Shown here one piece after another: positions 8,192 to 14,755 of a stretch of 23,920 bases of DNA. A model generated the notes under the pieces. That model was given only the letters and a program-made list of their open reading frames with translations, made no database searches and was not told the DNA's origin. Every line of letters starts with the position of its first letter. Position 1 is the stretch's first letter. The translations under genes and the position numbers were made by a program. This DNA is from a virus, in IMG/VR virus record IMGVR_UViG_3300025000_000418, positions 1-23,920 of that record; one strand, given 5' to 3'.

Positions 8192-8211
8192 TTCAGAGGA
8201 CGGAAGCGAAA

Positions 8212-8247
8212 CCGGACCATTTTCCTGGCGTCAGGAAAATGATCCGG
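8212..8247. other. Strong hairpin after the DUF3164 gene
   Basis: Two 16-base arms (8212-8227 and 8232-8247) pair at 15 of 16 positions around a GCGT loop; the single mismatch is C8217 against A8242. No U-run follows on either strand, so it is not a standard terminator. It lies in the 195-base gap 8192-8386 just before a palindromic repeat, and could protect an mRNA end or be part of a small non-autonomous element. Confidence 0.6.
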
Positions 8248-8283
8248 TCATCCGGGCGTGGCGGCCCGGGTCTGATGAGCAGC

Positions 8284-8357
8284 CGTAGGATGCCGGTGAG
8301 GCACGAACCGCATCTGTCGCGATTTGATGCGGTTCGCGTGGCTCACCGCATCCTACG
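8284..8357. repeat. GTAGGATG-family palindromic repeat, copy 1
   Basis: This 74-base element has outer arms CGTAGGATGCCGGTGAG (8284-8300) and CTCACCGCATCCTACG (8342-8357), and inner arms CGAACCGCATC (8304-8314) and GATGCGGTTCG (8326-8336). It matches a second full copy at 12064-12135 and a half copy at 14764-14793. The pattern is that of REP/BIME-like chromosomal repeats. Confidence 0.85.
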
Positions 8358-10550: not shown

Positions 10551-10962
10551 CTACGCCAAGATCAATATCGCCTGCAAGGAGCTGGGGCTCGACAAGCATC
10601 AGTTGCTGGCGGACCGCTACGGCCTGCAGTCGTCGAAAGAGCTGACCGGCACGCAGACCTTTGACCTGCTGCGCCACCTGCAGTCCCTGGGCTGGCGGGC
10701 GAAGTCCGGCCGTGGCGCGCCGGGCAAGGCGGACCGGACCCGGCCCGGCTACATCGCCATCAAGCCGGGGCCGGCCGCCGGCCAGCAGCGCAAGGTCCTG
10801 GCCATGTGGGCGCGGCTCGGCTACGCGCCGGAAAAGCTGCACGAACGGTGCCGGCGGCAGTTCGGCGTCGATCGCTTTGAATGGGTGACCGAGTACGCGC
10901 ACCTGCACGTGCTGATCACCGACCTGTCGAAACGGCTGAAGGCCACGATGGAGGCGCGATGA
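10534..10962 (+). CDS. gemA: GemA-like protein (Mu gp16 family, DUF1018)
   Basis: The protein has 142 residues. It follows the GemA pattern: N-terminal helices (YAKINIACKELGLDKHQL, then KELTGTQTFDLLRHLQSLGW), a glycine/basic linker, and a C-terminal helical part (QQRKVLAMWARLGYAPEKLH, then FGVDRFEWVTEYAHLHVLIT). Mu GemA has been linked to modulation of host gene expression and DNA supercoiling; the mechanism is poorly known. The ATG at 10534 has a strong GGAGG seven bases upstream. The next gene (mor) starts in an ATGA overlap, matching the usual gemA-mor order of Mu-like phages, which raises confidence in both. Confidence 0.85.
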   Translation: MPTRADYAKINIACKELGLDKHQLLADRYGLQSSKELTGTQTFDLLRHLQSLGWRAKSGRGAPGKADRTRPGYIAIKPGPAAGQQRKVLAMWARLGYAPEKLHERCRRQFGVDRFEWVTEYAHLHVLITDLSKRLKATMEAR

Positions 10963-11297
10963 ACATATTCGACCTTGACATCATCGAGCTGCCGGACGAT
11001 GCCCTGCCGGCAATCGAGGAGCTGGACGGCGACATGCGCCTGGTGGCCGAGACCATCGGCGTACGGCTGGCCCTGCGACTGGCCCAGGTGTTTCATGGCA
11101 CCTCGATCAATCTCTATAAGTGGAAGAAGTGGACCCGCCGCCACCGCGACAAGTGCATCCGCCGCGACTACGACACCGGCCGGTATACCGGGGTGGAGCT
11201 GGCGCGCAAGTACTTTATCGGCCAGCGCCAGGTGTGGAACATCCTTGGCCGGGCGGAAGCCCCGGTTAAGGAAGACCGGCAATTGCGGATGTTTTGA
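10959..11297 (+). CDS. mor: Mor-family middle transcription activator
   Basis: The protein has 112 residues against about 129 for Mu Mor. The N-terminal part is acidic (DIIELPDDALPAIEELDG), followed by the dimerisation block (MRLVAETIGVRLALRLAQVF, then GTSINLY) and a C-terminal HTH (KCIRRDYDTGRYTGVELARK, then FIGQRQVWNILGR). Mor/C proteins bind as dimers next to weak promoters and recruit RNA polymerase through alpha and sigma. Here it should activate middle or late transcription. No separate C homologue is visible in the window, so this protein may do both jobs or C may lie elsewhere. It directly follows gemA with ATGA overlap. Confidence 0.85.
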   Translation: MNIFDLDIIELPDDALPAIEELDGDMRLVAETIGVRLALRLAQVFHGTSINLYKWKKWTRRHRDKCIRRDYDTGRYTGVELARKYFIGQRQVWNILGRAEAPVKEDRQLRMF

Positions 11298-12432: not shown

Positions 12433-12457
12433 CGCGGGGCGGAGAATTTCTTAAATC
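12433..12457. repeat. 25-bp leader repeat, copy 1
   Basis: This matches 13092-13116 with two mismatches (CGCGGGGCGGRGAATTTCTT core). Both copies lie 20-40 bases upstream of a rightward gene (12477 and 13135), so this may be the tail of a regulatory leader that was duplicated with the C4-type control region. Confidence 0.7.
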
Positions 12458-12476: not shown

Positions 12477-12818
12477 ATGAAAAAATTCGCGAACATGAAC
12501 GAAGCCCTTGCCGTGGCAACCGACCGCAGCAAGATTAACACCAAGGAATGGCGGGACGCGGCGTGCTACATTTTGGACAACGCGCCGCCTCCCCTGCGGG
12601 CTCGATTCGACGCCATCCAGGGCGAGCTGATGGGCAAGCATTTCCCGGAATTGAAGCCAGATCATTACGATGAGCAAGGAGTTCCTTACTATTCTGCCGC
12701 GTCAGTCCAGAAGGCACTGGATATGAGTGACGAAGAAATGAACGTGGCTATTGCTGACCTGAAGGATTGCCACCCTTCCCACGTCACGACCGCAGATAAG
12801 CTGCATCGGCTGCAGTGA
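12477..12818 (+). CDS. Phage protein of unknown function upstream of the C4 RNA
   Basis: The protein has 113 residues. It is helical and charged (KKFANMNEALAVATDRSKIN; WRDAACYILDNAPPPLRARF; SVQKALDMSDEEMNVAIADL), with no membrane segment or metal site. The ATG at 12477 has AGGGAG six bases upstream. Its leader shares a 25-base block with the leader of the rha gene. It precedes the promoter of the C4-like RNA. I do not recognise the family. Confidence 0.65.
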   Translation: MKKFANMNEALAVATDRSKINTKEWRDAACYILDNAPPPLRARFDAIQGELMGKHFPELKPDHYDEQGVPYYSAASVQKALDMSDEEMNVAIADLKDCHPSHVTTADKLHRLQ

Positions 12819-12828
12819 GGAAGGCGCC

Positions 12829-13113
12829 ATGGTGGGGCAACAGGTAACTGTGAATGACCGCTTGACAAATGGTGATCGGTTCGGCTATCATACTTGTGTC
12901 GTCGGGATACCGGCGGCCGGGTTTAGAAGCCCGAAACCAGAGGCGGACACACCGCCACCAGCAGTCTTGGCGGTTTTTTTGTGTCCGTGGCATGGCGCTC
13001 TCTCCTTGGGCGGCATGCGGGGAGCTTCGGCTCGCCGGTTCCTCTGGTCCGGTCTTCTAACCCGCATGTCCGCCCATTTTGCGTTTAGAAGCGCGGGGCG
13101 GGGAATTTCTTAA
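12829..13113 (+). CDS. Leader frame running through the C4 region (Icd/Ash-like)
   Basis: This 94-residue frame spans the whole C4-like RNA and its target site. Its segments (PPPAVLAVFLCPWHGALSLG; ARRFLWSGLLTRMSAHFAFR) resemble the many phage ORFs annotated as Ash or Icd-like that overlie C4 regions. In phage P1 the C4 RNA controls translation of a leader frame coupled to icd and ant. A similar coupling to rha, 21 bases downstream, is possible. The frame may instead just reflect the conserved RNA. GAGGAAGG lies before the ATG. Confidence 0.35.
   Translation: MVGQQVTVNDRLTNGDRFGYHTCVVGIPAAGFRSPKPEADTPPPAVLAVFLCPWHGALSLGGMRGASARRFLWSGLLTRMSAHFAFRSAGRGIS
12862..12891 (+). promoter_or_regulatory. 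Strong sigma-70 promoter for the C4-like RNA
   Basis: A perfect TTGACA (12862-12867) is followed after 18 bases by TATCAT (12886-12891). It starts transcription a few bases before the C4-like hairpins and depends on no visible activator, so it should be active in the lysogen. Confidence 0.75.
12900..12990 (+). ncRNA. c4: C4-type antisense RNA
   Basis: The RNA has the C4 layout known from P1/P4-like prophages. A first hairpin CGGGTTTAGAAGCCCG (12918-12933) exposes the first antisense segment, then ACCAGAGG (12936-12943) is the second. The 3' hairpin is GGACAC (12945-12950)/GTGTCC (12981-12986), enclosing ACCGCCA (12951-12957)/TGGCGGT (12968-12974) with a T7 run (12974-12980) that can terminate transcription. 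Both antisense segments match a site 100 bases downstream in the correct antiparallel order. C4 RNAs repress antirepressor operons post-transcriptionally, keeping the lysogen stable. Confidence 0.85.
13041..13064 (+). promoter_or_regulatory. C4 target site in the rha leader
   Basis: CCTCTGGT (13041-13048) is the perfect complement of ACCAGAGG in the C4-like RNA. CTTCTAACCCG (13054-13064) pairs with CGGGTTTAGAAG with one bulged base. Order b then a against a' then b' is as required for antiparallel pairing. It lies 71 bases before the rha start. Confidence 0.75.
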
Positions 13114-13116
13114 TTC
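13092..13116. repeat. 25-bp leader repeat, copy 2
   Basis: A copy of 12433-12457 with two mismatches, between the C4 target site and the rha Shine-Dalgarno. Confidence 0.7.
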
Positions 13117-13134
13117 TCTACCGGAGGAAATGTC

Positions 13135-13764
13135 ATGAACCAGAAGCAGATCAGCACCATCAAGCGTCACCTCACCATCAAAGACGGCGAGCCCGTCACC
13201 ACCTCCCTGGACATTGCCACGTTTTTCGGCATGAAACACAAGGATGTCCTACGGGCAATCGAGAACAAAATAGCCGATTGTCCGACGGAATTCGTCGGGC
13301 GCAATTTTGCGCTCGTCTCGTATGTCGATAATCACAACCAGCAGCGGCCCATGTACGAGCTGACCCGCAAGGGGTTTGACATTGTGGCCCTGGGCTTCAC
13401 GGGGCCGAAGGCCATGGAGTTTCAGATTGCCTACGTCGAGGCCTTTGAACAGAAGGAACAGGAGCTGCAGCAAAAGGTGCTCGCGGGGCGGGCCGATGCC
13501 GTCATCGGAACGCTGGCTATCACCGCCGCCATTGCCAGGTCCGGCTACAAAGCTGACTTCCTCGCCAGGATGGTGCACCTGCGTTTTGCCGGTCTCACCG
13601 TCAAGGAGGTGGGGCGGGTGCTTGGCGTGAGCAAGGATGTCGTGGTCCGGTGGTCCAGCGTCCTGCGCAAGGCCGGGGTGGACTTTCCGAAGAGCGCGAA
13701 GCCGGCCGCGGCCCTGCTCAAGTCCGCCGGCCGCCAGCTCTGCCTGCCGGGGCTGGCGTCATGA
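13135..13764 (+). CDS. rha: Rha-family phage regulatory protein (antirepressor-like)
   Basis: The protein has 209 residues. Residues about 14-95 are a Rha domain: LTIKDGEPVTTSLDIATFFG, then KHKDVLRAIENKI, EFVGRNFALVSYVDNHNQQR, PMYELTRKGFDIVALGFTG and the KAMEFQIAYVEAFE helix. The C-terminal half has an HTH (LRFAGLTVKEVGRVLGVSKD, then VVVRWSSVLRKAGV). Rha proteins in lambdoid phages affect lysogeny and host-factor dependence, and are often paired with C4 RNAs as antirepressor-like switches. GGAGG (13123-13127) lies seven bases before the ATG. The leader holds a C4 target site, so expression is probably blocked in the lysogen by the C4-like RNA. The next gene overlaps by ATGA. Confidence 0.85.
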   Translation: MNQKQISTIKRHLTIKDGEPVTTSLDIATFFGMKHKDVLRAIENKIADCPTEFVGRNFALVSYVDNHNQQRPMYELTRKGFDIVALGFTGPKAMEFQIAYVEAFEQKEQELQQKVLAGRADAVIGTLAITAAIARSGYKADFLARMVHLRFAGLTVKEVGRVLGVSKDVVVRWSSVLRKAGVDFPKSAKPAAALLKSAGRQLCLPGLAS

Positions 13765-13955
13765 ACGGGCCGGTGCTGGCCTTCGGCTCGGAGGAGCCGC
13801 GGGATTTATTGCATAACGCCGCGGCGGTGCTCAGCCTGCTGGCGGCCCTGGCGCCCGGCGCGGCCGATGACTTCGGCCACGACGCCGCTGACGGCCTGGG
13901 CCTGGTGCTGCGCGCGGTTGAGCTCACCATCGAGGCGGCGGTCGCGCGGTTGTAG
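13761..13955 (+). CDS. Small helical phage protein after rha
   Basis: The protein has 64 residues, alanine- and leucine-rich and helical (LLHNAAAVLSLLAALAPGAA; DGLGLVLRAVELTIEAAVAR). It lacks charged flanks typical of a membrane helix pair, so a small cytoplasmic helical bundle is more likely. The start is coupled to the rha stop (ATGA), which suggests co-expression under the same C4 control. The family is not recognised; similar tiny proteins are often found in this place in phage operons. Confidence 0.55.
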   Translation: MNGPVLAFGSEEPRDLLHNAAAVLSLLAALAPGAADDFGHDAADGLGLVLRAVELTIEAAVARL

Positions 13956-14263: not shown

Positions 14264-14755
14264 ATGACCAAGGAATACGACCGGTGGTTTCAGGAGTTTA
14301 CCTTCCTCTACTTCTCCGGGCTGGTGAGCTGGCCGTGGCTGAAGGCGCAGGGGATCGCCGAGTCGAACCTCCGGCACGATGCGGTATCAAAGGCCGGGGC
14401 GCGGGGGCTGATGCAGATCATGCCCGGGACCGCCGTCGATATCGCCAAGCATTTCGCGGTGGTGCCCAACCTGGATGACCCGAAGACCAACATCATGTTC
14501 GGCGCCCATTACCTGCGCAAGTGCTGGGACATCTTCAAGAAAGAAGAGGGGTTGGAGCGGTTGCGGTTTGCCTTCGGCGGCTACAACGCGGGGCCTGGCC
14601 ACATCATCAAGGCCCAGGAATTGACCGACCGGCCAACCGTATGGGAGGCGGTGAGCGCCCAGTTGCACAAGGTGACCGGCGAGAAGAACGCGCTGGAGAC
14701 CATCACCTATGTCCGCCGGATCGAGGGGATCCGGCTTTCGATGATCGAGATATGA
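14264..14755 (+). CDS. Lytic transglycosylase endolysin (SLT family)
   Basis: The protein has 163 residues. The catalytic Glu is E33 in GIAESNLRHDA, followed by the SLT motifs GLMQIMPGTA (48-57) and YNAGPG (107-112). Such enzymes cut the beta-1,4 bond between MurNAc and GlcNAc, giving anhydro-MurNAc, and are used by Mu-like phages for lysis. The N-terminus (RWFQEFTFLYFSGLVSWPW) is moderately hydrophobic and aromatic but is not a classical signal peptide; release could need a holin. It is the first gene after the middle-operon terminator, as lysis genes are in Mu. The ATG at 14264 follows GGAGGGGCG. Confidence 0.9.
   Translation: MTKEYDRWFQEFTFLYFSGLVSWPWLKAQGIAESNLRHDAVSKAGARGLMQIMPGTAVDIAKHFAVVPNLDDPKTNIMFGAHYLRKCWDIFKKEEGLERLRFAFGGYNAGPGHIIKAQELTDRPTVWEAVSAQLHKVTGEKNALETITYVRRIEGIRLSMIEI

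Follow-up and report, generated by a model that had tools for sequence, protein, structure and literature searches.

A probable C4 antisense RNA module of P1 type ahead of a Rha-type gene in a Mu-like phage

The region behind mor in this Mu-like phage raises the question of how the Rha-type gene found there is controlled, i.e. which RNA is the antisense partner and which sites are its targets. The window analyzed here is the whole 23,920-base virus record IMGVR_UViG_3300025000_000418, a contig of metagenomic origin with no host in culture, which encodes a transposase and a portal of Mu type together with a Mor-type activator. The Mor assignment (PF08765), the rha gene (PF09669, 2.4e-25), and the Mu-like surroundings were confirmed, in agreement with a sequence-only reading of the locus that had placed a Rha-like gene after mor in a Mu-like phage. 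The closest transposases among bacterial genomes come nearly all from Desulfobacterota, which is therefore probably the phylum of the host. C4 switches are already known in P1-type and other prophages, and phage P1 silences its antirepressor by such a small C4 antisense-RNA switch. Between Mor and an SLT lysozyme-like gene, the window holds a promoter, a leader with a terminator, a structured RNA, and rha, arranged as follows:

10881-11297: Mor
12862-12891, + strand: sigma-70-type promoter of the module, TTGACA-18-TATCAT (from sequence, with its position conserved across modules)
12898-12980, + strand: a1b1 target leader, isrK-like, a possible short terminated RNA (isrK and c4-a1b1 matches, both below cut-off)
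12923-12929, + strand: a1, TTAGAAG in a hairpin loop, partner of a' of the C4 RNA (complementarity)
12936-12943, + strand: b1, ACCAGAGG, partner of b' of the C4 RNA, overlapping the 5' arm of the anti-terminator (complementarity, folding)
12942-12956, + strand: predicted anti-terminator, GGCGG-ACACA-CCGCC
12952-12980, + strand: intrinsic terminator, CCGCC...GGCGG-U7
13002-13076, + strand: C4 antisense RNA (RF01695, fold)
13041-13048, + strand: b', CCTCTGGT, in the C4 loop (complementarity to b1 and b2)
13054-13060, + strand: a', CTTCTAA, single-stranded within C4 (fold, complementarity)
13085-13091, + strand: a2, TTAGAAG in a hairpin loop (complementarity to a')
13120-13127, + strand: b2, ACCGGAGG, containing the Shine-Dalgarno of rha (pairs with b' at 8 of 8 positions, one of them G-U)
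13135-13764, + strand: rha, a regulator carrying a Rha domain and, at its C terminus, a helix-turn-helix-like part (PF09669, PHROG 518, weak helix-turn-helix matches)
14264-14755: SLT lysozyme-like gene

An all-Rfam scan matched the C4 family (RF01695) at 13002-13076 with 45.1 bits, just 0.1 bit above the gathering cut-off of 45, and the same segment folds into the C4 shape (z = -5.2). A C4 model built here (R1) gave 65 bits for the window, a value that is not independent evidence because the window was in its training set, so that the Rfam score is the independent one. The arrangement that characterizes RF01695 members was likewise found, with a score of at least 45 bits, a1/b1 upstream, and a2/b2 downstream over the ribosome-binding site.

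All four sites (a1, b1, a2, and b2) are fully paired with a' or b'. The ordered pair a1/b1 (12923-12929 plus 12936-12943 against 13054-13060 plus 13041-13048) lies in antiparallel order, and a comparable pair arose in 29 of 20,000 dinucleotide shuffles, against 33 of 20,000 for a pair comparable to a2/b2, i.e. about 0.15% for each. On the + strand, scanned over all 23.9 kb of the window, these two were the only ordered matches to a' plus b'; action of the C4 RNA on another gene of the window was rejected, as that strand has no third ordered site pair. The pairing also holds across relatives: we compared own and foreign flanks for 41 distinct C4 modules, counting as a match at least 7 contiguous Watson-Crick pairs (contiguous runs were used, duplex energies over long segments being blurred by a common CCGG stem). 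The a' core matched the upstream flank of its own module in 40 of 41 cases (foreign flanks, 2.5%) and the downstream flank in 38 of 41 (1.8%), while b' did so in 27 (3.3%) and 30 (7.4%) of 41, respectively, these counts not being independent events as the modules are partly related, a relatedness that the foreign-flank control shares. The variable 7-nt cores thus vary jointly in the antisense RNA and both targets over the 41 modules, with b'-b1 matches weaker than a'-a1 ones.

The strong promoter of the sequence-only reading is present, with TTGACA at 12862-12867 and TATCAT at 12886-12891 around an 18 bp spacer, and its position is conserved in most modules: a promoter-like match of at least 9 of 12 stood at a fixed distance 5' of a1 in 34 of 40 modules, the mean score at that distance being 8.85 versus 4.65 in shuffles. 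Its hairpins with an intrinsic terminator (CCGCC...GGCGG with T7, to 12980) and its two short complementary segments were also borne out, the latter by the shuffles above. Within the leader (12898-12980), the isrK model (RF01394) scored 39.2 bits over all 77 positions, short of its gathering threshold of 50, and c4-a1b1 (RF03163) matched the first part with 29.0 bits, short of 46.7, a cut-off under which 8 of 10 c4-a1b1 matches in C4-bearing relatives likewise fall.

The same order of promoter, a1, b1, C4, a2, b2 with the Shine-Dalgarno, and gene, at similar spacings, is found in the c4-icd-ant1/2 operon of P1/P7 (in the P1 record, a1 at 48255, b1 at 48269, c4 at 48343-48419, a2 at 48423, b2 at 48452, and icd at 48470). 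Ordered pairing is common to both, as is a gene of antirepressor type, putative in the window, and the window terminator, between b1 and C4, matches the order annotated for P1 c4/icd/ant. The window differs in its Mu-like rather than P1 backbone, and in that rha directly follows b2, whereas P1 has icd and then ant. Because of this P1 precedent, C4 would repress rha at a2/b2, and we consider it highly probable that the locus is a P1-type C4 immunity module whose switch acts on rha at these sites.

For the expression, processing, and repression of this module, we infer the following course. The constitutive promoter (12862-12891) would give a single RNA of leader, C4, and rha, from which the 75-nt C4 RNA (13002-13076) would be freed by processing, by analogy with P1. 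On newly made transcripts, the b' loop and the a' strand of C4 would bind b2 and a2, masking the Shine-Dalgarno of rha so that translation is blocked; they would bind b1 and a1 of the leader as well. Occupation of b1 would destroy the predicted anti-terminator, so that the terminator (12952-12980) would form and transcription would end 5' of rha. In a lysogen, rha would be kept off; in a newly infected cell, with no C4 yet, the leader would be read through and Rha made.

The leader step follows from an overlap, the last two bases of b1 beginning the GGCGG (12942-12946) that partners the terminator 5' arm CCGCC. In equilibrium folding, the anti-terminator has a probability of 0.96 in the free leader and 0.00 once b1 is occupied, and the terminator correspondingly goes from 0.04 to 0.99. 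Across 39 modules, the mean predicted terminator probability was 0.43 in free leaders, 0.82 with b1 occupied, and 0.48 in a control in which a neighbouring block of the same length was occupied instead. The rise exceeded 0.3 in 22 of 39 modules versus 4 of 39 for the control, and 16 of the 38 leaders examined had alternative stems of at least 5 pairs, the expected number being 2.6. The folding switch is not general to C4, as it is missing in 17 of the 39 modules and in P1, where the anti-terminator is not effective and the terminator reaches 0.93 already in the free leader. A role of the Gifsy-1 C4-like RNA in modulating termination at the IsrK terminator was raised as a possibility by the authors of the IsrK study (PMC4825925), while in the literature covered, which includes little of the older phage literature, an anti-terminator at b1 was nowhere found described. 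On these folding models, we regard C4-dependent attenuation at b1 in the rha leader as an evenly balanced proposition. If it is true, the leader of rha would serve this Mu-like phage as an RNA switch with two locks. The function of the upstream a1/b1 sites, labelled only ‘putative’ in the P1 record, becomes directly testable as that of an attenuator.

Other readings of the locus assign its RNAs differently. In the sequence-only reading, the RNA starting near 12898 was itself the C4 antisense, repressing rha by pairing with a leader site at 13041-13064. While this complementarity is genuine and the upstream RNA comes with a promoter and a terminator of its own, the above-cut-off match to the C4 model lies at 13002-13076 instead of on the upstream RNA, the P1 annotation makes the upstream sites targets, and 13041-13064 stops 70 nt 5' of the rha start codon, excluding the Shine-Dalgarno that b2 includes. 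We thus hold that assignment to be very improbable: the RNA from about 12898 is the isrK-like a1/b1 target leader, and 13041-13064 is the b'/a' pairing region of C4 itself. What stands is a C4-type system before a Rha-type gene, with the antisense and target roles swapped and with a2/b2, which that reading had missed. It is similarly hard to credit that the module is a decaying, functionless remnant of which the C4 match is left over, even if the Rfam score barely reaches the cut-off and b2 contains a G-U pair, given that the four pairing sites are fully paired, the promoter strong, the C4 fold stable, and the rha open reading frame intact, and that a near-identical contig (L008) retains all 971 bases of 12800-13770.

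A less distant alternative supplements the C4 switch with activation of IsrK type, the short terminated RNA 12898-12980 serving as a trans decoy for C4, or for the C4 part of the mRNA, and turning rha on. The coverage of the full isrK model speaks for it, as does Gifsy-1, in which the short IsrK turns on the translation of the mRNA made by read-through of its own terminator (PMC4825925). The isrK score is under the Rfam cut-off, however, and, since the terminator is predicted not to form in the free state, the short RNA would be scarce in the absence of C4; we view this activation as possible but rather unlikely. The isrK-orf45-anrP region of Gifsy-1 otherwise resembles the layout predicted for the window in having a short terminated leader RNA, a stable processed RNA (STnc1160) that shares complementary sequence with the IsrK leader RNA, and an antirepressor gene (PMC4825925), but the window leader is below the isrK cut-off and no equivalent of orf45 lies between C4 and rha. 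The CI RNA of P4, with seqA and seqC, also combines upstream and downstream targets with termination as output (PMC4825925), a likeness drawn from its description only, and differs in belonging to a satellite phage and in controlling replication genes.

The module, in our preferred reading a C4 switch on rha, recurs in related elements. A degenerate C4 pattern was detected in 9 viral contigs, including L008, and a C4 family search of 192 genomes from one Desulfobacterota class gave matches in 15. Searching by transposase identified two more Mu-like elements with the module 3' of Mor, L012 (= L036) and L055, whose loci have MuA proteins 45-53% identical; the gene after the module is a Rha gene in L012 and a Bro-N-like gene in L055, the latter label coming from sequence inspection and not from a family search. 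With the window, this makes three diverged Mu-like phages, linked to Desulfobacterota, in which the module follows mor, while the remaining transposase-bearing loci, some of them too short-reaching, gave no significant C4 match. A C4 model built here recovers the C4 RNA of P1 at 46 bits and finds nothing significant in Mu, vB_ThpS-P1, Aussie, TJ1, KS10, MP22, or vB_RhkS_P1; a distant DNA search of the locus against named phages gave no match. The window places a C4 of known kind in a backbone where none was seen among the named phages sampled. Because C4 is known from P1-type phages and none was found in Mu or these six named Mu-like phages, the window shows that the module moves between unrelated phage backbones, and at least three diverged Mu-like elements retain it behind mor. 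Separately, AATTTCTTAA, in surroundings that are alike over about 20 nt, occurs at 12445 and 13104, before the gene at 12477 and rha, respectively; in the rha leader it forms a hairpin between a2 and b2, and it is also present in L012.

In L047, another relative of the Mu-like element, sRNA-Xcc1 (RF02221, 62.6 bits; L047:7236-7440) stands where C4 would be, ahead of a gene with Bro-N and Rha domains. Its layout of promoter, b1, terminator, antisense, b2 with the Shine-Dalgarno, and antirepressor-type gene is like that of the window, but sRNA-Xcc1 forms its own Rfam family outside the C4 clan, and a folding switch at b1 as its rule was unsupported in the module folding test. Requiring at least 6 Watson-Crick pairs, the sRNA-Xcc1 loop core matched the upstream pre-terminator site in 16 of 17 own combinations versus 20 of 270 foreign ones, and the Shine-Dalgarno of the next gene in 17 of 17 versus 12 of 270. 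By eye, the pattern also holds for two copies on plasmids, which precede KilA-N and Bro-N genes. Across the sRNA-Xcc1 loci (L047, L100, L101, L102, L105-L117, L127, and L128), the next gene is often Rha, Bro-N, or KilA-N, and the loop core co-varies with both sites. The papers covered describe this sRNA as acting in trans or linked to virulence, with no target confirmed, and note it 5' of symE in integron cassettes (PMC2996969, PMC12444791, PMC12189769). Its sequence suggests a second antisense RNA of C4 type, which gives it a concrete local candidate target, the gene immediately behind it. As the L047 slot holds sRNA-Xcc1 with the same b1/antisense/b2 layout, this suggests that the slot takes interchangeable antisense types. 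We would place at about even chances the broader proposal that, in many C4 modules including that of the window, the a1b1 leader is an attenuator operated by a trans RNA in addition to the translation block at b2, with an antisense slot exchangeable with sRNA-Xcc1.

The rha product also matches anti-repressor PHROGs, and its only close relative among viral contigs lies in the near-identical contig. Its C-terminal part (13507-13761) gives helix-turn-helix matches below cut-off, and because this part looks helix-turn-helix-like, the Rha of the window may itself bind DNA. Rha would act as an antirepressor, and the module may, as the sequence-only reading proposed, add a further lysis/lysogeny control to that by c/Ner. 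The c-like repressor lies at 173-658; no word of at least 9 bases that could be a common operator is shared between its region (640-1000) and the promoter of the module. Elsewhere in the window, a type II hammerhead ribozyme (8204-8288, + strand; 65.3 bits against a cut-off of 37) lies in the early region 3' of the MuB-like gene, and another occurs in a Mu-like relative (L035:6903-6973, + strand; 52.5 bits).
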